Source of the DNA: Eubacteriaceae bacterium
GTDB lineage: Bacteria > Bacillota > Clostridia > Peptostreptococcales > Anaerovoracaceae
Assembly (NCBI GenBank): GCA_022652985.1
Contig: JALCRY010000007.1
Location: forward strand, 1-64,000
DNA: 64,000 bases
Reading direction: 5' to 3'
Shown: piece by piece, positions 2,397 through 29,964 of the stretch
Layout of the letters: each line of letters starts with the position of its first letter
Position numbering within the stretch: position 1 is the stretch's first letter
Position numbers and translations under genes: made by a program
Notes under the pieces: generated by a model
Databases searched by the model: none
What the model saw: only the letters and a program-made list of their open reading frames with translations
Told to the model about the DNA's origin: nothing

Positions 2397-3308
2397 ATGT
2401 ATGAACTGATAAAGGCGGCTGAACACAGCTGGTATATAGAATGTCCTGCCAAAATAGGTGTTTATGTAAGCGACGAAACAGATGAAAAAGGAAAGCGCAA
2501 AGCTTACCTGATCGACACGGGCAACGACAAGGACTGCGGCAAGAAGGTGCTGCGCGCACTCGAAAACGAAAACATTTCTCCGCAGGCGATTTTCATCACC
2601 CACTCCAATGCCGATCATGTCGGCGGCTGCCGGCTCATCGCCGGCCGACTCGGCATCCCGGCCTACGCCCCCGGTATAGAAGCATGCATTACCGAAAATC
2701 CGCTGCTGGAAACATCCTATCTTTACGGAGGATATCCGCCGGCCGATCTCAGACACAAATTTCTCATGGCGCAGGCCTGCGAATGCGCAGATCTTGACCG
2801 CCATCCTGAAGCACTCCCCGCAGGGCTCACAGTGATCCCGCTGCACGGGCATTACTTCGATATGGTCGGCTACCGCACCTGCGACGGCGCGTTTTACATC
2901 GCCGACTGCGTTTCCAGCCGGGAAAACCTGGAGAAATATCAGCTCTGGGTAATATACAGTGTTCCCGATTTTCTGGCGACCCTGGAAACGGTCATGAAAA
3001 TGGACGCTTCTCTCTACATTCCGTCCCATGCCGAGGCAACAGAAGACATCCGCCCTCTCGCCCTGTACAATATCGACAAAGTAAACGAGACGGCGGATAA
3101 AATACTCAATATTCTCCGCGAGCCTATGGTCAGCGATGAACTCATCAGACGCATCTTCCGGGAATATGACCTGCCATTTTCATTTGAGCAGTATGTCCTG
3201 GTCGGCAGCACAGTCCGCTCCTATCTGTCATGGCTTCGCGATGAAAAACGTGCGGAGGCATACGCAGACGACTGCAGGATCATGTGGAAAACCGCCGAGG
3301 ACAAATAA
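2397..3308 (+). CDS. MBL-fold metallo-hydrolase with HSNADH metal motif
   Basis: This 303-residue protein is a metallo-beta-lactamase-fold hydrolase. The metal-binding signature reads HSNADH at residues 69-74, so the second histidine of the usual HxHxDH is replaced by asparagine. Later fold markers are present: LHGHYFDMVG near residue 148, the metal aspartate in FYIADC and a final IPSHAEA. The gene has its own promoter and a GGAGGT site and is convergent with the aldehyde dehydrogenase gene. The family hydrolyses many ester, thioester and nucleotide substrates, so no substrate can be assigned. The substitution may reduce it to a single metal site or mark a subfamily. Confidence 0.82.
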   Translation: MYELIKAAEHSWYIECPAKIGVYVSDETDEKGKRKAYLIDTGNDKDCGKKVLRALENENISPQAIFITHSNADHVGGCRLIAGRLGIPAYAPGIEACITENPLLETSYLYGGYPPADLRHKFLMAQACECADLDRHPEALPAGLTVIPLHGHYFDMVGYRTCDGAFYIADCVSSRENLEKYQLWVIYSVPDFLATLETVMKMDASLYIPSHAEATEDIRPLALYNIDKVNETADKILNILREPMVSDELIRRIFREYDLPFSFEQYVLVGSTVRSYLSWLRDEKRAEAYADDCRIMWKTAEDK

Positions 3309-3322
3309 CGCCGGCAGCGCCG

Positions 3323-4696
3323 TCACATCTTTTTATTGAAAATGAGACGCAGCAGCTTGTACGACAGATCATCATACGGCATATACCTCAGCGGTACATC
3401 TATCAGCGCCGTATTTTTCATGATGCTTCTGGTATGTGAAAAAGTCTCGAAGCTCTTTTTCCCATGGTAAGAGCCCATGCCTGACGCGCCGACTCCTCCA
3501 AACGGCATGCGCGATGATGCAAGATGCATTATTACATCATTGAAGCATCCTCCGCCGAAAGAGCAGCAGTCCTTAACGACTTTCTGTGCGCTTCTGTCGC
3601 TCGAAAAGAAATACAGCGCCAGCGGTTTCGGCCGGCTGTTGACAAAAGTGATCGCCTCACCGAGCCTCTCATATGTAAGAATCGGCAGGATCGGCCCGAA
3701 TATCTCTTCCTGCATCACCGGCGACTCCGGATCCACATCTATTAAAAGCGTCGGCTCGATGAATCTCGTCTCCGGATCGGAGTTCCCGCCGTACGCGATG
3801 TTCTGCCCTTCCATAAGTCCTGTCACGCGTTTAAAATGCTTGTCGTTCACTATGCGCGCCATATCCAGATAATCTCCGTCCGGGAAGAATTTTTTCATCA
3901 CGTCTTTGAAAGCCGAGATGAACTCATCGCGCACGCTTTCCTGTATCAGGAGATAATCAGGCTCCACGCAGGTCTGCCCCGCATTGACGATCTTGCCGAA
4001 AGCGATCCTTTTCGCGGCGACTTCGATATCAGCAGTTTCATCGATAATAACAGGGCTCTTGCCGCCGAGCTCAAGAGTCACCGGTGTCAAATGCGCGGAA
4101 GCTGCCTCCATTACAGTCCTGCCGACGGCAACACTGCCCGTAAAAAAGATGTAATCAAAATCCTGTTCGAACAGAGTTTTATTTTCTTCTCTTCCGCCCT
4201 GAACGACGGCCACGTATTTCTCCGGGAAGATCTCCGCGATCATATCCGCGATCACCTGCGAAGCGGCAGGCGTATAGGCGGAAGGTTTTATCACCGCGCA
4301 GTTTCCTGCGGCTATCGCCCCGATCAGCGGCTCCAGCGTCAAAAGAACAGGATAGTTCCACGGCGAAACTATCAGGACCTTTCCGTACGGCTCCGGCGAC
4401 ATCGAACATATCGCCGGCAGCTGCGCTATCGCCGGGATCGTATATCTGTCCCTCATCCAGCCGCGCAGGCGGTTCCGGCAGTAATGCAGTTCGTCGAGCG
4501 CTATCCCTATTTCCGTCATATACGCTTCATTTCTATGCTTGTGCAGATCCTCCTCCAGCGCGCTGAAAAATCTGCCCTCATAAGCTTCGATCCCGTCCTT
4601 CAGTTTATCCAGCATGCTTTTTCTGAAAGCATACGAACGCGTCATGCCCGAATTGAAGAACTCCGTCTGTTTCTTCATTATTTCCTTGATTTCCAT
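3323..4696 (-). CDS. NAD(P)-dependent aldehyde dehydrogenase, class 3 type
   Basis: This 457-residue enzyme oxidises aldehydes to acids. The general-base glutamate is E209 in LELGGKSP and the catalytic cysteine is C243 in GQTCVEPDY, both class-3 hallmarks; the cofactor loop TGSVAVG is at 186-192. The short N-terminus and the C-terminus ending in LRLIFNKKM resemble the short fatty-aldehyde type enzymes. It is a single gene, convergent with the MBL gene, with a good ribosome site (AAGGAGG) upstream of the ATG at 4696. The physiological aldehyde is unknown; aldehydes from amino acid fermentation are plausible substrates. Confidence 0.92.
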   Translation of the reverse strand: MEIKEIMKKQTEFFNSGMTRSYAFRKSMLDKLKDGIEAYEGRFFSALEEDLHKHRNEAYMTEIGIALDELHYCRNRLRGWMRDRYTIPAIAQLPAICSMSPEPYGKVLIVSPWNYPVLLTLEPLIGAIAAGNCAVIKPSAYTPAASQVIADMIAEIFPEKYVAVVQGGREENKTLFEQDFDYIFFTGSVAVGRTVMEAASAHLTPVTLELGGKSPVIIDETADIEVAAKRIAFGKIVNAGQTCVEPDYLLIQESVRDEFISAFKDVMKKFFPDGDYLDMARIVNDKHFKRVTGLMEGQNIAYGGNSDPETRFIEPTLLIDVDPESPVMQEEIFGPILPILTYERLGEAITFVNSRPKPLALYFFSSDRSAQKVVKDCCSFGGGCFNDVIMHLASSRMPFGGVGASGMGSYHGKKSFETFSHTRSIMKNTALIDVPLRYMPYDDLSYKLLRLIFNKKM

Positions 4697-20223: not shown

Positions 20224-21411
20224 TCACCTGTTGCTCAGAAGATATTTCATGCCTTCGGACAGTCCGTTCAATGTCAGCGGATACATTTCGAAGTATTTTT
20301 TCAGCATAAAATAAGTCCTTGTCCAGTAACTTTCCTGGCTAGGAGTACGCTGCGGATGTATCCATATTATATGGGAGTATTTGCTTTTGAAATCCAGGAA
20401 GTGATCGAGACCTGTTTTTCTGTTCCGGTCCTTTCGCGGCGACCAGACCGGATAGCAGAGTTCATCCATCGCCATCTCCGCGTCCCCGACTATTATTACT
20501 TTATAATTCTCCGGGATGTTGTTGATCACCCATTCTGTCGGAATGCGTTTCCTGTAATCAAGATCCGGTGTTTCATAAAGCGAATCGCTGATGAAATTAT
20601 GGAAGTAATATATCTTCAGGTCGTCGAAGTTCCCGGCTTTTTTGACCGACTGAAACAGAAGGCTGCACAGATCTCTGTAATAATCCATCGAGCCGCCTGA
20701 ATCCATCAGCATCAGCACCTTGACGATATTCTTCCGCGGCGCCTTTTTGACTATCTTGAGTTTGCCGGCGTTATTGCAGGTCTGCGATATCGTCTCGTCA
20801 ACATCAAGCTCCGTCTTCGGCAGAGCGGAATGATCTGAAAGCTGACGCAGACTTCTGAACGCCAGCTGGAACTGTCTGGAATCGATAGTGTTGTCGCGTC
20901 TCCAGTCGCGGTATTTCCTTTCGGACGCCACACGATACGCGGAACGCATCCTGCTTGTACCGCCCACGCGTATGCCGCCGAGTTTTTTGCCGCTGTTGCC
21001 GTAAGCAGTGTAACCGTTCGTGCCGATCCACTTGCTTCCGCCGTTATGTTCTTCCTTCTGGTCTTCCAGGCGCTGTCTGAACAGCTCTTCGATTTCCTCC
21101 ATCGACAGGCCCGACATTTTGGCCAGTTCCGCAAGTTCGTTTTTTTCTATTTCCGGATGTTCAAGCCACTCCAGCATTTCCTTCGTGACTTCATCATTGA
21201 ATTCCACATCCTTGAAGTATTCCAGGAATACCTGATCGAAAATATCAAAATCAGATTCGCTCTTTACGAGCACTGCTTTGCACAGCGAATAGAACCCCGT
21301 CAGAGAAGACTGATGCAGATCCATCTGCAGCGCCTCCATAAGCGTAAGCCATTCAGTCAGCGATACTTTCAGACCGCGCGCGCGAAGCAGGTAAAAAAAT
21401 GGTATGAACAT
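20224..21411 (-). CDS. VWA domain protein, CoxE-like
   Basis: This 395-residue protein carries a von Willebrand A domain in its C-terminal half. The metal-ion-dependent adhesion site is DSGGSM in VLMLMDSGGSMDYY, followed by a WIHPQ strand. The N-terminal 150 residues contain the LRARGLKVSLTEW region typical of CoxE-like proteins paired with MoxR ATPases. The gene follows the MoxR gene by three bases. The pair is expected to act as a chelatase-like chaperone that remodels or loads metal into an unknown partner protein; no CO dehydrogenase genes are nearby. Confidence 0.9.
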   Translation of the reverse strand: MFIPFFYLLRARGLKVSLTEWLTLMEALQMDLHQSSLTGFYSLCKAVLVKSESDFDIFDQVFLEYFKDVEFNDEVTKEMLEWLEHPEIEKNELAELAKMSGLSMEEIEELFRQRLEDQKEEHNGGSKWIGTNGYTAYGNSGKKLGGIRVGGTSRMRSAYRVASERKYRDWRRDNTIDSRQFQLAFRSLRQLSDHSALPKTELDVDETISQTCNNAGKLKIVKKAPRKNIVKVLMLMDSGGSMDYYRDLCSLLFQSVKKAGNFDDLKIYYFHNFISDSLYETPDLDYRKRIPTEWVINNIPENYKVIIVGDAEMAMDELCYPVWSPRKDRNRKTGLDHFLDFKSKYSHIIWIHPQRTPSQESYWTRTYFMLKKYFEMYPLTLNGLSEGMKYLLSNR

Positions 21412-21414
21412 CTG

Positions 21415-22248
21415 CTATGCCCTTCCGAGATTATCATTCAAAATATCGAGGTCCTCGTTTTTCTTCAGCAGCACCCCTGCATACGGAATTTCTTTCGTGA
21501 TCCTATCCGTATCGAAGCCGCTGATTTTGAGCGCCACTATCCAGTCCAGGAGTTCGCTCGTACTCGGTTTTTTATGCAGATGATCAAGACTGCGGACCCA
21601 GTAGAATGCGTTGATAACCTGATCGAGAAGGATATCCTCGATGTCAGGATAATGCACATGCACTATATCCCTCATCAGATCCTCTTCCGGGAAATCGATG
21701 TAATGGAAAATACATCTTCTCAGGAAAGCATCCGGCAGTTCCTTCTCCGCATTCGAAGTGATAATAACGATAGGTCTCTGCTTCGCCTTCACCATCTTAC
21801 CGGTCTCCGGAATATAGAATTCCATCTTGTCCAGTTCCCAGAGAAGATCGTTAGGGAACTCCAGGTCGGCCTTGTCCACTTCATCAATGAGCAGCACCGC
21901 CTGCTCTTCGCGGGAAAATGCCTCTCCGAGCTTCCCGAGCTTTATATATTTCGCGATCTCGTCGACGCCGGTATTCCCGAACTGACTGTCATAAAGACGC
22001 TGCACGACATCATATACATAGAGACCCTCCTGAGCCTTTGTGGTGGATTTAATATTCCATGTAATGAGTTCCTTCCCCAGCGAATCCGCCACCGCCCTGG
22101 CCAGCTCCGTTTTCCCGGTTCCCGGTTCTCCTTTTATTACCAGCGGCTTCCCCAGCGCTATGGCAATATTCGCCGCCTGCATAAGCTCCGGACTGGAAAT
22201 ATATTCATCGCTTCCCCTGAATTTCTCATTTACTCCCGTAATGTTCAT
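21415..22248 (-). CDS. MoxR-family AAA+ ATPase
   Basis: This 277-residue ATPase has Walker A GEPGTGKTEL near residue 40, Walker B LLIDEVDKAD near 118, sensor 1 ITSNAEKELPDAF and an arginine-finger region LRRCIFHYIDFPEEDL. MoxR proteins assemble with VWA partners, here the gene three bases downstream. The start at 22248 is just after the GCAxxG gene's stop, so the three genes probably form one operon. The target protein of this MoxR/VWA pair is unknown. Confidence 0.92.
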   Translation of the reverse strand: MNITGVNEKFRGSDEYISSPELMQAANIAIALGKPLVIKGEPGTGKTELARAVADSLGKELITWNIKSTTKAQEGLYVYDVVQRLYDSQFGNTGVDEIAKYIKLGKLGEAFSREEQAVLLIDEVDKADLEFPNDLLWELDKMEFYIPETGKMVKAKQRPIVIITSNAEKELPDAFLRRCIFHYIDFPEEDLMRDIVHVHYPDIEDILLDQVINAFYWVRSLDHLHKKPSTSELLDWIVALKISGFDTDRITKEIPYAGVLLKKNEDLDILNDNLGRA

Positions 22249-23997: not shown

Positions 23998-24687
23998 TCA
24001 GTCTCCCACTCCGAAGTCTGTGTTTTCAATGAGGACTTCGATATCGGGATCCTGCAGCAGCCAGCCGAATTCGTCGAGGAACCATTCCGCAAGTTCACGG
24101 TCACGTTTGACCGGCGTAGTATTGTCCGTAAACATATTTATCGTGCCCAGTCTGAAATACTTTTTCAGGATATCGATATCGCGCCTTATCATCTCTCTGG
24201 TCTGTCCCTTAATACCGACCATCAGACAGGGCGAGTCAAAGTATTCCGCCACTTCCGCCGGTGATGTGAACCCCGCGTTTTTATTTAAATAATTCTCTCT
24301 GAAATCATTGTCGAAAGTCTCCACGCCGATCTTGAAAGTTATCGGTACCCCCATGCGTTCTCTCATTTCCTCGAGTCTGTGTCTGTACATCCAGTGAGAC
24401 TCCAGAAAAAGGCGCTCTATATTTTTGGCATGTATGAGATCATGTATTTCATCAAGCGTCTGCTCCGGAAGGTCAAAGCAGCTCGCGGAATCGATCACCT
24501 CGAGCACTCCCATATCTCCTCTGACCTTTGCAAGCACTGCAGAATCGAGCTCGACTATCGCCTGTTCATCGGTTTCGTTGTCGGCGATATAATCGCAGAA
24601 TGTACACTTTCCCCATTTGCACGGGAATGCTTTCAGCAGTACGATCTCGCGCGGATGCTTTTCTGTTATCCTGCCGTATCTTTCCAT
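23998..24687 (-). CDS. queL: Radical SAM enzyme, probable queuine lyase (QueL-like)
   Basis: This 229-residue protein has the iron-sulphur motif CKWGKCTFCDY at about residues 23-33, spaced CxxxxCxxC rather than the canonical CxxxCxxC. Later blocks include FLESHWMYRHRLEEMRERMG and FKIGVETFDNDFRENYLNK. The start (ATG 24687) overlaps the stop of the ECF transporter gene as TGATG. The transporter is preceded by a preQ1-I riboswitch. Clostridioides difficile has a radical-SAM lyase (QueL) that converts queuine to preQ1 and an ECF transporter for queuosine or queuine; length and neighbours match. The function is inferred, not seen in the sequence. Confidence 0.65.
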   Translation of the reverse strand: MERYGRITEKHPREIVLLKAFPCKWGKCTFCDYIADNETDEQAIVELDSAVLAKVRGDMGVLEVIDSASCFDLPEQTLDEIHDLIHAKNIERLFLESHWMYRHRLEEMRERMGVPITFKIGVETFDNDFRENYLNKNAGFTSPAEVAEYFDSPCLMVGIKGQTREMIRRDIDILKKYFRLGTINMFTDNTTPVKRDRELAEWFLDEFGWLLQDPDIEVLIENTDFGVGD

Positions 24688-25259
24688 CACAGCCCCCTCG
24701 GCATTCTTCTCTGCACTGCAAAAGCTGCCCATACGCTTATAAGACAGTTGGCAAAATCAGTAATGAACTGTACTGTGAAAACGCTCGCAACAAGTCCCAT
24801 GCCCGCCGCATTGTGCAGGAGCTGCACGAGTATGCTGGATCCGGACGAGGTCACGCCGCCGAACACGAAGGCGGTTATCACCGCGCTCACCAGCGACACG
24901 GGAATGGCTATTACGGCAGCCGAAATGACTATCCGGCGGAGCGAATTCCCCTCACCGGGCCTGTATTTCCTGAAAATGAGTCCTGCTGCTCCTCCGGCGA
25001 TTATCTGCACCGGAAGATAATAAAGTGAATATATGTCTGTGGTCACGCCGCATATCAATGCGCCCGCGGCACCGGCGATCATGCCGGCCGCCGGACCGTA
25101 TCTGACCGCACAAATAACGGTTCCGATACTGTTCAGGTATATCGGTATACCCATAAACAGCGCAATATCGCTGCCCGCGACATTGATCATGCTGCCGGCC
25201 GCGATAAGACACAGCCGAAGCGTGCGGGCCCTGCTCAGAGAGCCTTTTCCTGCATCCAT
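24687..25259 (-). CDS. ECF transporter S component, queuosine/queuine precursor type
   Basis: This 190-residue membrane protein has about six helices. Features of ECF S components include the short N-terminus and the loops VRYGPAAGMIAGAAGALICG and HNAAGMGLVASVF. It has AAGGAG upstream and a 5' preQ1-I riboswitch, so its substrate is likely preQ1, queuine or queuosine. It would pair with a shared EcfAA'T module encoded elsewhere. Families QueT and QrtT both fit; the link to the downstream radical-SAM gene favours the queuine/queuosine type. Confidence 0.78.
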   Translation of the reverse strand: MDAGKGSLSRARTLRLCLIAAGSMINVAGSDIALFMGIPIYLNSIGTVICAVRYGPAAGMIAGAAGALICGVTTDIYSLYYLPVQIIAGGAAGLIFRKYRPGEGNSLRRIVISAAVIAIPVSLVSAVITAFVFGGVTSSGSSILVQLLHNAAGMGLVASVFTVQFITDFANCLISVWAAFAVQRRMPRGL

Positions 25260-25283
25260 TCTCCAATCTCCTTTCTGAGAGAT

Positions 25284-25318
25284 ACTTGGTTTTTTATCCT
25301 GGGAAGTTCACGAACCAG
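25284..25318 (-). promoter_or_regulatory. preQ1-I riboswitch
   Basis: The minus strand reads CTGGTTCG...CCCAGGATAAAAAACCAAG. The P1 stem is CTGG/CCAG with a 12-base loop of exactly the length in the known preQ1-I aptamers, and the A-rich tail ATAAAAAACxAAG is shared with Bacillus subtilis queC. It ends about 25 bases before the transporter start, with the AAGGAG ribosome site next to it, so translational control is likely. Binding of preQ1 is expected to shut down expression. Confidence 0.85.
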
Positions 25319-25396: not shown

Positions 25397-26170
25397 CTAT
25401 TCCGCCATAGCTTTCATTTCAGCAGCGGAAATGAATTCCAGTTCAGCCTCGCATGCCGACTGTATCTCATCCTTCGTAACTCCGGGATACATCGCTGTGA
25501 CTCTGTAATGTCCGCGCCTTGTCCCGTTTCTGTCCCGGGCGGCATCTTCTCCGCCTTCGACGAATTCCATTATGCACTTTTCCGTGACCACGCGCGTGAC
25601 GCAGTGCACTGCTGTCAGCGGCAGCGTGCATTCTTTCAGGATCTTGGCCGATCCGTCCTTCGCCTCATGCTGCATAGCTATGGTGACGTTTTTCGTGCCG
25701 GCCAGGATATCCATGCTGCCGCCCATTCCATTGACACGTTTTCCCGGGATCACCCAGTTCGCCAGATTGGCATATTCGTCGACCTGGAGCGCGCCGAGCA
25801 CCGTCATGTCGAGGTGTCCGCCTCTCAGTATTCCGAACGATGTCGGCACATCGAAAGTGCAGGCCCCCTCGATCAGCGTCGAAACATTCGAGCCCGCATT
25901 AGCCATATCCTTATGACCCGTTCTGTAATTTCCCTGATTGCCGCGGTGCTCGTTCTCCCATCTCTCAAAAGTTTCCGCATCGTCGTAGATCCCTTCGAAC
26001 GCCAGCTGCCTGCCGAGCCCCGCCGAACCGTTCTCTCCTTCGAGTATTACTGTAATATCGTCCGGAATATAATTCCCGACGAGCATAGGCACTCCGACGC
26101 CCAGATTCACAAAATCGCCGTCCTTCAGCATCAGCGCGATGTTTTTCGCGATAATATTTCTCCAGTCCAT
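25397..26170 (-). CDS. Acyl-CoA:carboxylate CoA-transferase, subunit B
   Basis: This 257-residue subunit belongs to the type I CoA-transferase family (3-oxoacid/acetate/glutaconate). The catalytic glutamate lies in LEGENGSAGLG near residue 53, and GMGGSMDI and VHCVTRVVTEK are typical of the beta subunit. The start is the ATG at 26170 overlapping the subunit A stop (TGATG). Subunits A and B are separate genes, as in Clostridia. It lies at the end of the IorBA operon; an arylacyl-CoA donor is inferred from that context. Confidence 0.88.
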   Translation of the reverse strand: MDWRNIIAKNIALMLKDGDFVNLGVGVPMLVGNYIPDDITVILEGENGSAGLGRQLAFEGIYDDAETFERWENEHRGNQGNYRTGHKDMANAGSNVSTLIEGACTFDVPTSFGILRGGHLDMTVLGALQVDEYANLANWVIPGKRVNGMGGSMDILAGTKNVTIAMQHEAKDGSAKILKECTLPLTAVHCVTRVVTEKCIMEFVEGGEDAARDRNGTRRGHYRVTAMYPGVTKDEIQSACEAELEFISAAEMKAMAE

Positions 26171-26847
26171 CACAGCACCTCCTGCGGACAATGCACGATA
26201 TGGTCGATGAACGGTCCCGGCAGTCTGACATCTCCCGGATCTATCTCGCCGACCTCGACGATCTCCTCCGCCTCCAGTATGGCAATATCGCCCGCGGCGG
26301 CCATGATCGTGTTCATATTTTCACCGGTATACTTAAAAAGCGCGTTCCCCATCCTGTCGGCTTTCCAGGCCTTCACCAGGGAAACATCCGCACGCAGCGG
26401 AAGCTCGAGGATATACTTTTCTCCGTTGATGACTTTTGTTTCCTTGCCCTCTTCGACCAGCGTCCCGACGCCGGTCTTCGTATAAAATCCGCCGATGCCG
26501 TAAGCGCCGCAGCGTATCCTCTCCGCCAGAGTCCCGAACGGCACGAAAGTCACCGCAAGTTCGCCGTCGACTATTCTCCGGCCGGCCCTCGGATTCGGCC
26601 CGATAAAATCGCAGGTCGCTCTTTTTATCATGCCCTTCTGCTGAAGCAGCCTCTCCGCGCACTGATCGAAGCCGCGGAACGTCTCGCCGAGATTGTCGCA
26701 TATAAGATCGATGTCTCTGAGATCCGTTTCCGACATGGCCTTGATCAGATTGCACGGGGCGCCGATATTGCCGAATCCGCTGATCATGACAGCGTCCCCG
26801 TCATGTATCAGCTTCATCGCATCTTTCATTTCTATTACTTTATCCAT
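26170..26847 (-). CDS. Acyl-CoA:carboxylate CoA-transferase, subunit A
   Basis: This 225-residue subunit has the oxyanion/CoA motif MISGFGNIGAPCNLI (20-34), close to the family pattern GGFGxxGxP, and GFYTKTGVGT in the middle. It forms the heteromer with subunit B. The gene follows iorB by 18 bases. In the context of indolepyruvate oxidoreductase it could move CoA from an arylacetyl-CoA product to a free acid and so release the arylacetate. Confidence 0.88.
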   Translation of the reverse strand: MDKVIEMKDAMKLIHDGDAVMISGFGNIGAPCNLIKAMSETDLRDIDLICDNLGETFRGFDQCAERLLQQKGMIKRATCDFIGPNPRAGRRIVDGELAVTFVPFGTLAERIRCGAYGIGGFYTKTGVGTLVEEGKETKVINGEKYILELPLRADVSLVKAWKADRMGNALFKYTGENMNTIMAAAGDIAILEAEEIVEVGEIDPGDVRLPGPFIDHIVHCPQEVL

Positions 26848-26865
26848 AGCTGTTCCACGATCTCC

Positions 26866-27444
26866 TTAGCTCAGATACTCGAGTCCCACTCTGAAGGCCT
26901 GCATGTTCTTCTCGAGAAACGCAGCCTTGGTGTTTTCCGCCATGATCTTCTCCCAGTCGATATCCGTGAGACCCATGGCCTTTACGAGAGCCCCCAGCAG
27001 CACGATATTCATCGACTGCGGCGACCCGAGTTTTTCAGCCTCCGCGGACGCGGGTATTACTGTAGTTTCCACCTTAGCCTTTATCTCGTCGATAAGCCCC
27101 TCCGGATAAGTTTCTTCTCCGGTGAGGATAGGCGAGCTCGGGATCCTGAACTTGTTCAGCACGACCTTACCGTCCGGCTTCAGGTATTTCATCCATCTGT
27201 ACGTTTCCTCTTCTTCGAACGAAACGATCAGATCCGCTTCACCCGGCCCTATGACCGGCGCATTGACCTTGTCTCCGTATCTTATCTGTGTGGTAACGCT
27301 TCCGCCTCTCTGTGACATTCCGTGGATTTCCGACATCTTCACGTCGTATCCTTCCTGCCCCAGTCCTATCGTCAGCAGTTTGCTCGCAAGGATCGTGCCC
27401 TGGCCTCCCACGCCTACCAGCAGTATGCTCTTCGTCATTTTCAT
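26866..27444 (-). CDS. iorB: Indolepyruvate ferredoxin oxidoreductase, subunit beta
   Basis: This 192-residue gamma-type 2-oxoacid oxidoreductase subunit opens with ILLVGVGGQGTILASKLL and contains MSEIHGMSQRGGSVTTQIRY, the diagnostic IorB blocks. It pairs with IorA to decarboxylate indolepyruvate, phenylpyruvate and 4-hydroxyphenylpyruvate to the corresponding acetyl-CoA derivative, reducing ferredoxin. The gene is seven bases after iorA on the same strand. The size is normal for the family. Confidence 0.95.
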   Translation of the reverse strand: MKMTKSILLVGVGGQGTILASKLLTIGLGQEGYDVKMSEIHGMSQRGGSVTTQIRYGDKVNAPVIGPGEADLIVSFEEEETYRWMKYLKPDGKVVLNKFRIPSSPILTGEETYPEGLIDEIKAKVETTVIPASAEAEKLGSPQSMNIVLLGALVKAMGLTDIDWEKIMAENTKAAFLEKNMQAFRVGLEYLS

Positions 27445-27451
27445 ATCCTCC

Positions 27452-29242
27452 TTACTTTACCTTCACAATAGCGTCTTTCGGACAGACCTGCGCGCATATG
27501 CCGCAGCCGACACAGGACGGTTCATAGATCCAGGCCTTCTTTGCCTCAGTATCGAATCTGAGTGCCGGGCAGGCCGTTTTCGTACACATCTTGCAGCCGA
27601 TGCATTTTTCTTTATCCATCTGATAAAGGTGCCTCGTGACGTCGAATTCCTGCAGATCATCTTCCGTGAATTTCTTGAGTGCGCACGGCCATCTGGTAAT
27701 GATGACGCCCGGTTCCTCAAGCGCAAGTCCCCAGTCCAGGGTTGCGCCGACTTCCTGGAGATCCAGAGGATTTATCGTCCTGACATTTTTCACTCCCAGG
27801 GCTTTGACGATTGCAGTAATGTCCGCTGCCGGCGCATTTTCGCCTCTCGCAGTATATCCTGTACCCGGGTTATTCTGGTGTCCCGTCATGCCAGTTGTCC
27901 TGTTGTCCATGATGATGACGAGATCGCGGCTGTTGTTGTAAACGATGTCGAGCAGTCCCGTCATGCCGCTGTGGAAGAAAGTCGAATCTCCGAGGACGCT
28001 GACGGCTTTCATGTCGGTACCGTAATGCTCAAATGCTTTCGCCGCGCCATGTCCTCCCGATACTGATTCTCCCATACAGAGAACAGTGTCGGTCGCGCTG
28101 AACGGCGGCAGCGGTGCTATGCCGTAACAGCCGATATCGCCGCTGATGAAAATCTTTCCGTTCTTTGCTCTTCTCCCGAGCTCGTAGAATAGTCCCCGGT
28201 GAGGACATCCGGCACAGAACACCGGCGGACGCTCCTTTATTTTTCCGGTATCCAGATCTATCGTTTCCGATTTAATCCCCAGTACTTTTTCTTTTATGAT
28301 AGATGTCGAAAGCTCACCCTCCTGCGGGAATACTTCCCTGCCGATGCAGTTTATACCCTTGGTCCTCAGCTGGAACTCCAGATACGGCTCGCTCTCTTCT
28401 ATGACATACACCTTGTCGAATTTCTCCGTGAACTCCCTGATCTTTTCAAAAGGCACAGGGAAGGAAAACCCGACCTTGAAGTACGATGCCTTATCCCCCA
28501 GCGCATCCTTCGCATACTGATACGAGATGCCGCTCGTCACGACACCGATCTTCGCGCCGTCATTCATTACCGCATAATTGTATTTCGAATTTGCGGATTC
28601 GTCCGCAAGGACTTTCAGTCTTTCGAGTATCTCATGCCTGAGCTTTTTCGAGACAGCCGGCATCGTCGTATACTGCCAGATATCTCTTTTGTATTCTCTC
28701 TTCGGAACTTCCGTACGCTCTCCGAGTTCCACGAAGCTTTTCGAATGGCATATCCTCGTCGTCATTCTGATCATGACGGGCGTACGGTATTTTTCCGATA
28801 TCCTGATGCCTTCTATGACCATATCCTTGCATTCCTGCCCGTCTGCAGGCTCGAGCATCGGTATGTTCATCATACCGGCATAGAATCTGTTGTCCTGCTC
28901 CGTCTGCGACGAATGGATGCCCGGTTCATCCGCGGTAACGACTACAAACCCTCCGTTCGCACCCGTGTATGCAAATGAAAAAAGAGGATCGGCTGCAACA
29001 TTCATGCCCACCTGCTTCATGGCGCTGAATGATCTTCCGCCTACGAACGAATAGCCGATCGCCGATTCCACAGCGACTTTCTCGTTCACTGACCACTCCG
29101 AATCAAGATCGTCTTTATATCTTCCCGCCAGCGTCTCCAATATTTCCGTGCTCGGAGTACCCGGATATGCCGCCGCAAATGTTATACCGGCTTCATAAAC
29201 TCCGCGCGCAATGGCTTCATTGCCGGTCATCAGTTCTTTCAT
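27452..29242 (-). CDS. iorA: Indolepyruvate ferredoxin oxidoreductase, subunit alpha
   Basis: This 596-residue catalytic subunit has the N-terminal pyrimidine-binding part with YPGTPSTEILETL (25-37), then a thiamine-pyrophosphate part with GDIGCYGIAPLPPF and LGDSTFFHSGMTG, and two C-terminal [4Fe-4S] clusters in CIGCKMCTKTACPA and CVGCGICAQVCPK. The start (29242) overlaps the GntR gene stop as ATGA, so translation is coupled to the regulator. It is part of a Stickland-type aromatic amino acid route. Confidence 0.96.
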   Translation of the reverse strand: MKELMTGNEAIARGVYEAGITFAAAYPGTPSTEILETLAGRYKDDLDSEWSVNEKVAVESAIGYSFVGGRSFSAMKQVGMNVAADPLFSFAYTGANGGFVVVTADEPGIHSSQTEQDNRFYAGMMNIPMLEPADGQECKDMVIEGIRISEKYRTPVMIRMTTRICHSKSFVELGERTEVPKREYKRDIWQYTTMPAVSKKLRHEILERLKVLADESANSKYNYAVMNDGAKIGVVTSGISYQYAKDALGDKASYFKVGFSFPVPFEKIREFTEKFDKVYVIEESEPYLEFQLRTKGINCIGREVFPQEGELSTSIIKEKVLGIKSETIDLDTGKIKERPPVFCAGCPHRGLFYELGRRAKNGKIFISGDIGCYGIAPLPPFSATDTVLCMGESVSGGHGAAKAFEHYGTDMKAVSVLGDSTFFHSGMTGLLDIVYNNSRDLVIIMDNRTTGMTGHQNNPGTGYTARGENAPAADITAIVKALGVKNVRTINPLDLQEVGATLDWGLALEEPGVIITRWPCALKKFTEDDLQEFDVTRHLYQMDKEKCIGCKMCTKTACPALRFDTEAKKAWIYEPSCVGCGICAQVCPKDAIVKVK

Positions 29243-29910
29243 TTTTTGTCCTCCTTGTTATTTATCCGTTCACGGATCTTCATGGTTCCTTCCAGGTCGT
29301 GCTCGTTCATGAGCTTCAGCGCCAGTCCGATGTCATCCGCTTTCAGAGCCTCATAGACTGCACTGTGCTGCGCAAGTCCCGTCTGCCGGTTCGCTTCTAT
29401 CTGCTGAAACCGCAGAGTGCTCAGATTCAACTGTCTGTAGATATGGTCTGCAAAATCTCTTATCGTCTCATTCGGACACCATCTGATCAATGTCTCATGG
29501 AACAGCGAAGACTGCCTGTGGAATTCTTCAAAGTCCTCTTCTGCAAATGCCTGCCGCTGTGCCTCGATCACATCTCCCAGTTCATCAGCGAGCGGTCCGA
29601 TGTCATCGAGCTCATTTAGAGACTTCATGACGACCTCCGTGATATAATCATTCGCATCACTGAGATCGAGCTCCTTTTCGATGCTGAACGAGATCACCGA
29701 CGGTCCGGCGTTATATTTCTGTTCGACATAGCCGTCCTGGATCAGTCTGCTTATGGCTTCTCTCACAGGAGTCCTGCTGACCCCGAGCAGTTTCGATATA
29801 TCTTCAATATTCAACCTGGCTCCCGGACCCAGCTCGCCCGAATTGATCTGTCCGAGCACTTCAGAATATACCTGATCGACCAGCGAGACTCTTTTGATTT
29901 TCCTGTCCAT
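29239..29910 (-). CDS. GntR/FadR-type transcriptional regulator
   Basis: This 223-residue protein has a winged-helix domain at the N-terminus (INSGELGPGARLNIEDISKL and GVSRTPVREAISRLIQDGYV) and a C-terminal FCD ligand-binding domain with HRQSSLFHETLIRW and QTGLAQHSAVYEALKA. The start at 29910 has AAGGAGGA upstream. It is the first gene of the ior operon, and a strong palindrome lies just upstream of its promoter. FCD regulators bind small organic acids and often control the neighbouring catabolic genes, so the inducer may be an aryl-2-oxo acid or arylacetate. Confidence 0.9.
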   Translation of the reverse strand: MDRKIKRVSLVDQVYSEVLGQINSGELGPGARLNIEDISKLLGVSRTPVREAISRLIQDGYVEQKYNAGPSVISFSIEKELDLSDANDYITEVVMKSLNELDDIGPLADELGDVIEAQRQAFAEEDFEEFHRQSSLFHETLIRWCPNETIRDFADHIYRQLNLSTLRFQQIEANRQTGLAQHSAVYEALKADDIGLALKLMNEHDLEGTMKIRERINNKEDKK

Positions 29911-29964
29911 CGCTCCTCCTTCACAAACATGCCGCGGCAGCATTGCCGCTTCTCCGCTGAATGC

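Follow-up and report, generated by a model that had tools for sequence, protein, structure and literature searches.

Within the window, by which the whole analysed stretch of 64,000 nucleotides is meant, a short leader and two overlapping genes on the minus strand raise the question of whether this bacterium salvages a precursor of queuosine, in what form it would take it up, and how such uptake would be regulated. The preliminary description had seen a preQ1 riboswitch leader, a gene for an ECF transporter S component and a radical-SAM gene coupled to it through TGATG, and all three elements are present on the minus strand at the place where they had been reported. In the following, we present evidence that makes it highly probable that the locus constitutes a riboswitch-controlled queuine salvage operon.

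The leader and the control of the gene pair

A match to the Rfam model of the preQ1-I riboswitch (RF00522) was identified at 25324-25280 (minus strand; core at approximately 25318-25284), covering the full-length model (1-45) with 36.9 bits and an E-value of 6.5e-6 for the whole genome (2.33 Mb), in which it is the sole RF00522 match; the covariance-model search that had been proposed for this leader was thus positive. Since this score is below the gathering score of the model (39 bits), the aptamer is not reported by a default Rfam scan at the gathering threshold; its E-value and an alignment to the leaders of related loci consequently served as a recheck. Among the leaders of related loci that were scanned, 12 of 13 pass the cut-off, with 40-56 bits, and the aptamer motif is found upstream of queL in 31 of 49 QueL loci. 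An alignment of 24 related leaders displays two-sided compensatory changes in four of the five pairs of P1, and the structure in its entirety scores 0.329 for covariation, slid versions reaching no more than 0.045; the pseudoknot, taken together, covaries only weakly, since pairing of helix 2 amounts to just 55% in the single register that was tested. The P1 stem, the conserved loop GGUUCG, the AUAAAAAAC tail and the P2 pseudoknot are all conserved in the window leader, the only departure within the conserved tail being a C where all 23 compared leaders carry a U. This base faces a G of the loop, opposite which a leader with the same loop (L037) has the U, so that the pseudoknot pair would be G-C instead of G-U.

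The aptamer is separated by 20 nucleotides from the S-component gene (24687-25259, minus strand; 190 aa). No terminator was found between aptamer and gene, and a Shine-Dalgarno sequence is located approximately 8 nucleotides before the ATG, which together make control of translation the more likely mode of action of the leader. A possible hairpin masking the Shine-Dalgarno sequence (25263-25290, minus strand) would pair CCA with UGG and UCUCUC with GGAGAU, the CCA overlapping the strand of the pseudoknot; its predicted fold of -7.2 kcal/mol, computed by a method that cannot handle the pseudoknot, is no better than chance (z only -0.45), and folding of the expression platform yielded no significant structure. 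Elsewhere, preQ1-I switches lower expression upon binding of preQ1.

The second gene, queL (23998-24687, minus strand; 229 aa), overlaps with its start the stop of the S gene in the sequence TGATG. A mechanical listing of open reading frames places its start further upstream, at 24732, while homology to the PDB match described below and to related loci starts at the methionine of TGATG or close to it, for which reason 24687 is taken as the true start. Further along the window (25397-29943, minus strand), genes for two CoA-transferase subunits and a two-subunit 2-oxoacid:ferredoxin oxidoreductase of the indolepyruvate type stand behind a GntR regulator and likely represent an amino-acid fermentation cluster. 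At 20224-22248 (minus strand), a MoxR-type AAA ATPase is followed by a 395-aa protein without a Pfam match, possibly its VWA-type partner.

Assignment of the radical-SAM protein to the queuine lyases

Searching the radical-SAM protein against PDB chains with phmmer returned one match only, 6P78 (E 1.7e-77, 51-52% identity), the C. spiroforme (Clostridium spiroforme) queuine lyase in complex with queuine and SAM. The same structure is the top Foldseek match of an AlphaFold model built from 34 homologues (pLDDT 92.9), with a TM-score of 0.97 and 1.5 A rmsd along the whole chain, the second match being far more distant (E 5.5e-05, TM 0.57). The protein is 40-69% identical to the proteins of the 49 QueL loci, and in a maximum-likelihood tree it is placed within a Lachnospiraceae-rich group of eight rows (support 98/97). 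By sequence, fold and tree it is therefore a QueL, and the comparison proposed in the preliminary description assigns it to no other subgroup. The alternative that it is, for example, an archaeosine synthase (RaSEA) acting on a different deazaguanine is refuted on present evidence and retains a negligible probability: the weak match to NCBIfam TIGR01210 (45 bits) that would favour it falls far under the cut-off of 212 bits, by which RaSEA membership was rejected, and both the identity and the TM-score to the queuine-bound structure contradict it. The Cx4CxxC motif (CKWGKCTFC), earlier singled out for its unusual spacing, is real, but its spacing is unusual only in comparison with generic radical-SAM enzymes, since it is common to all QueL rows in the tree.

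Divergent QueL-like proteins with 40-45% identity were also encountered in rumen and other metagenome-assembled genomes (L045, L046, L047, L048 and L052); these carry CFYKKC, CRWKKC or CCWSKC in place of CxWGKC and may form a separate subgroup. Among 30 relatives of the organism that were searched, only one other possesses a QueL, which is divergent (45%) and lies beside a QPTR transporter. This patchy distribution, together with the placement in the tree, suggests that queL reached the lineage by horizontal transfer.

The S component and its probable substrate

The NCBIfam model for the CD3073 family of ECF S components (NF045596) matches 32 of 32 members of the S family; the window protein itself scores 66 bits against it, far under the cut-off of 180. 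Similarly, PF12822 matches 30 of the 32 homologues (30 of the 31 relatives of the window protein), whereas the window protein yields no match to it at E 0.1 and is without any Pfam match. A profile of the family reaches structures of folate S components at 5.5e-05, and the AlphaFold model of the window protein (pLDDT 88) is matched by Foldseek to RibU, ThiT, FolT and BioY with a probability of 1.00, despite E-values above 0.03; as modelled, the protein has the S-component fold. In the C. difficile loci L016, L031 and L039, the S protein encoded between queK and queL, which is the QrtT of the literature (PMC11477304), shares 45-48% identity with it. This homologous C. difficile transporter is reported to accept queuosine as well as queuine and preQ1 (PMC11130926, PMC11477304), and one C. 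difficile QrtT imports preQ1 only (PMC11130926). By analogy, and from its position before queL, the window protein very probably has queuine as its substrate.

The remainder of the genome was examined for the genes on which such a pathway would depend. The tgt gene is located directly after queA on contig 3 and queH is present on contig 31, while neither a true QueC nor QueF was found in this genome, which is just 82% complete, so that absences are not proof. The best QueC match (40 bits) was rejected as a paralogue, as true QueC proteins from the same order score 266-288 bits. Among the genes covered by the search, TGT, QueA and QueH are present and QueC and QueF absent, which is as expected for a preQ1 salvager and, for tgt, queA, queH and queC, in line with the genomic pattern anticipated by the preliminary description. 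The ECF core operon ecfA-ecfA-ecfT is also encoded elsewhere in the genome and is directly followed by a QueT gene (locus L060, contig C32, approximately 2665-3330). The genome therefore holds two S components for queuosine precursors, namely QueT, without a detectable preQ1 switch, and the window S gene, with one.

This second S component bears on the possibility that the window protein imports mainly preQ1 while QueL recycles internal queuine from tRNA turnover. Such an arrangement would agree with the preQ1-only C. difficile QrtT and with preQ1 being the riboswitch ligand, but we consider it improbable, as QueT already stands beside the ECF core, the window S protein is homologous to the C. 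difficile protein directly before queL, and the release of free queuine from turned-over tRNA requires a nucleosidase, none of which was found in the genome.

Salvage without QueK and comparison with known systems

The queK gene had been described as not adjacent, which is borne out at the locus, and no QueK or IunH nucleosidase was detected in the 82%-complete genome with either a QueK protein or PF01156, although the PF01156 search does recover proteins from the controls and the relatives. Judged by gene content, the substrate is consequently likely to be free queuine and not queuosine. Of the earlier proposal that the organism scavenges queuine or queuosine, the former is thus supported while the latter goes beyond the evidence. 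That the operon also salvages the queuosine nucleoside, with the nucleosidase step performed by an unrecognised or unlinked enzyme, appears rather unlikely, albeit less so than import of mainly preQ1: the homologous C. difficile transporter accepts queuosine, the nearest relatives of the window QueL (L002, L004-L007) carry queK in the operon and the genome is incomplete, yet QueK was not found in the genomes of L009, L010, L026, L043, L044 and G017 either, so that QueL systems without it recur, in several unrelated genomes. Across the 49 QueL loci, queK is in the operon in 24, and a QueK match lies elsewhere in the genome for L028, L036, L037 and L017, although the one in L037, at just 37% identity, is possibly a different IunH. 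Given that the closest QueL relatives carry queK, the simplest interpretation is that this lineage lost the gene. We tentatively propose, at somewhat less than even probability, a branch of indirect queuine salvage restricted to the base, in which riboswitch, transporter and lyase are kept and the nucleosidase is dropped, and which would depend on free queuine released by the host or by neighbours, or else on an undiscovered nucleosidase.

The S gene is directly upstream of queL in 31 of the 49 QueL loci (Clostridia), and the order aptamer-(queK)-S-queL is conserved in Clostridia including C. difficile. There, queK-qrtT-queL lies behind a preQ1-I riboswitch (Yuan et al. 2019, as given in PMC11477304), and the salvage system has been experimentally established (PMC11477304, PMC11130926). 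The window shares with it the preQ1-I leader, a homologous S component directly before queL and a host without preQ1 synthesis in which TGT and QueA are kept; it differs in that no queK is present in the operon or was detected by the searches of the genome, and in sequence (58% identity for queL and 45-48% for the S gene). The C. spiroforme QueL resembles that of the window in its fold along the whole chain, its Cx4CxxC motif and its sequence (52% identity), whereas its close relative in L043 (4409-5699) is encoded behind a preQ1 switch and an S gene of the QueT rather than the QrtT type. The two-gene aptamer-S-queL loci of Anaerosalibacter (L009), L010 and L026 likewise have no queK in locus or genome, but belong to another branch of the QueL tree, with S proteins 30-41% identical to that of the window. 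In L052 (773-2214) and L044 (4127-5690), the neighbour of queL is not an ECF S component but a queuosine precursor transporter of the QPTR type (TIGR00697). Pairing with QPTR or QueT in these loci indicates that QueL is tied to the uptake of queuosine precursors whatever the transporter.

For the window operon, the S component would associate with the ECF core encoded elsewhere to import queuine, which QueL is predicted to convert to preQ1 by means of a 5'-deoxyadenosyl radical; TGT would then place preQ1 into tRNA, with QueA and QueH completing queuosine. By analogy with other preQ1-I leaders, binding of preQ1 to the aptamer would lower the expression of both genes, probably at the level of translation. 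It is plausible that preQ1 acquired through QueT would silence the queuine branch, and that a shortage of preQ1 would open it. The reading of the locus as a queuine salvage pair is supported, and none of the contrary findings that the preliminary description had named was encountered. Systems of this kind are already known, and the arrangement without QueK is a modest variation; the locus nevertheless adds a clear instance, outside C. difficile, in which a tRNA micronutrient is likely obtained by cross-feeding and in which the switch would sense the product of the enzyme under its control. The occurrence of the form without QueK in several genomes bears on which organisms need free queuine as opposed to queuosine, and on which organisms release queuine.
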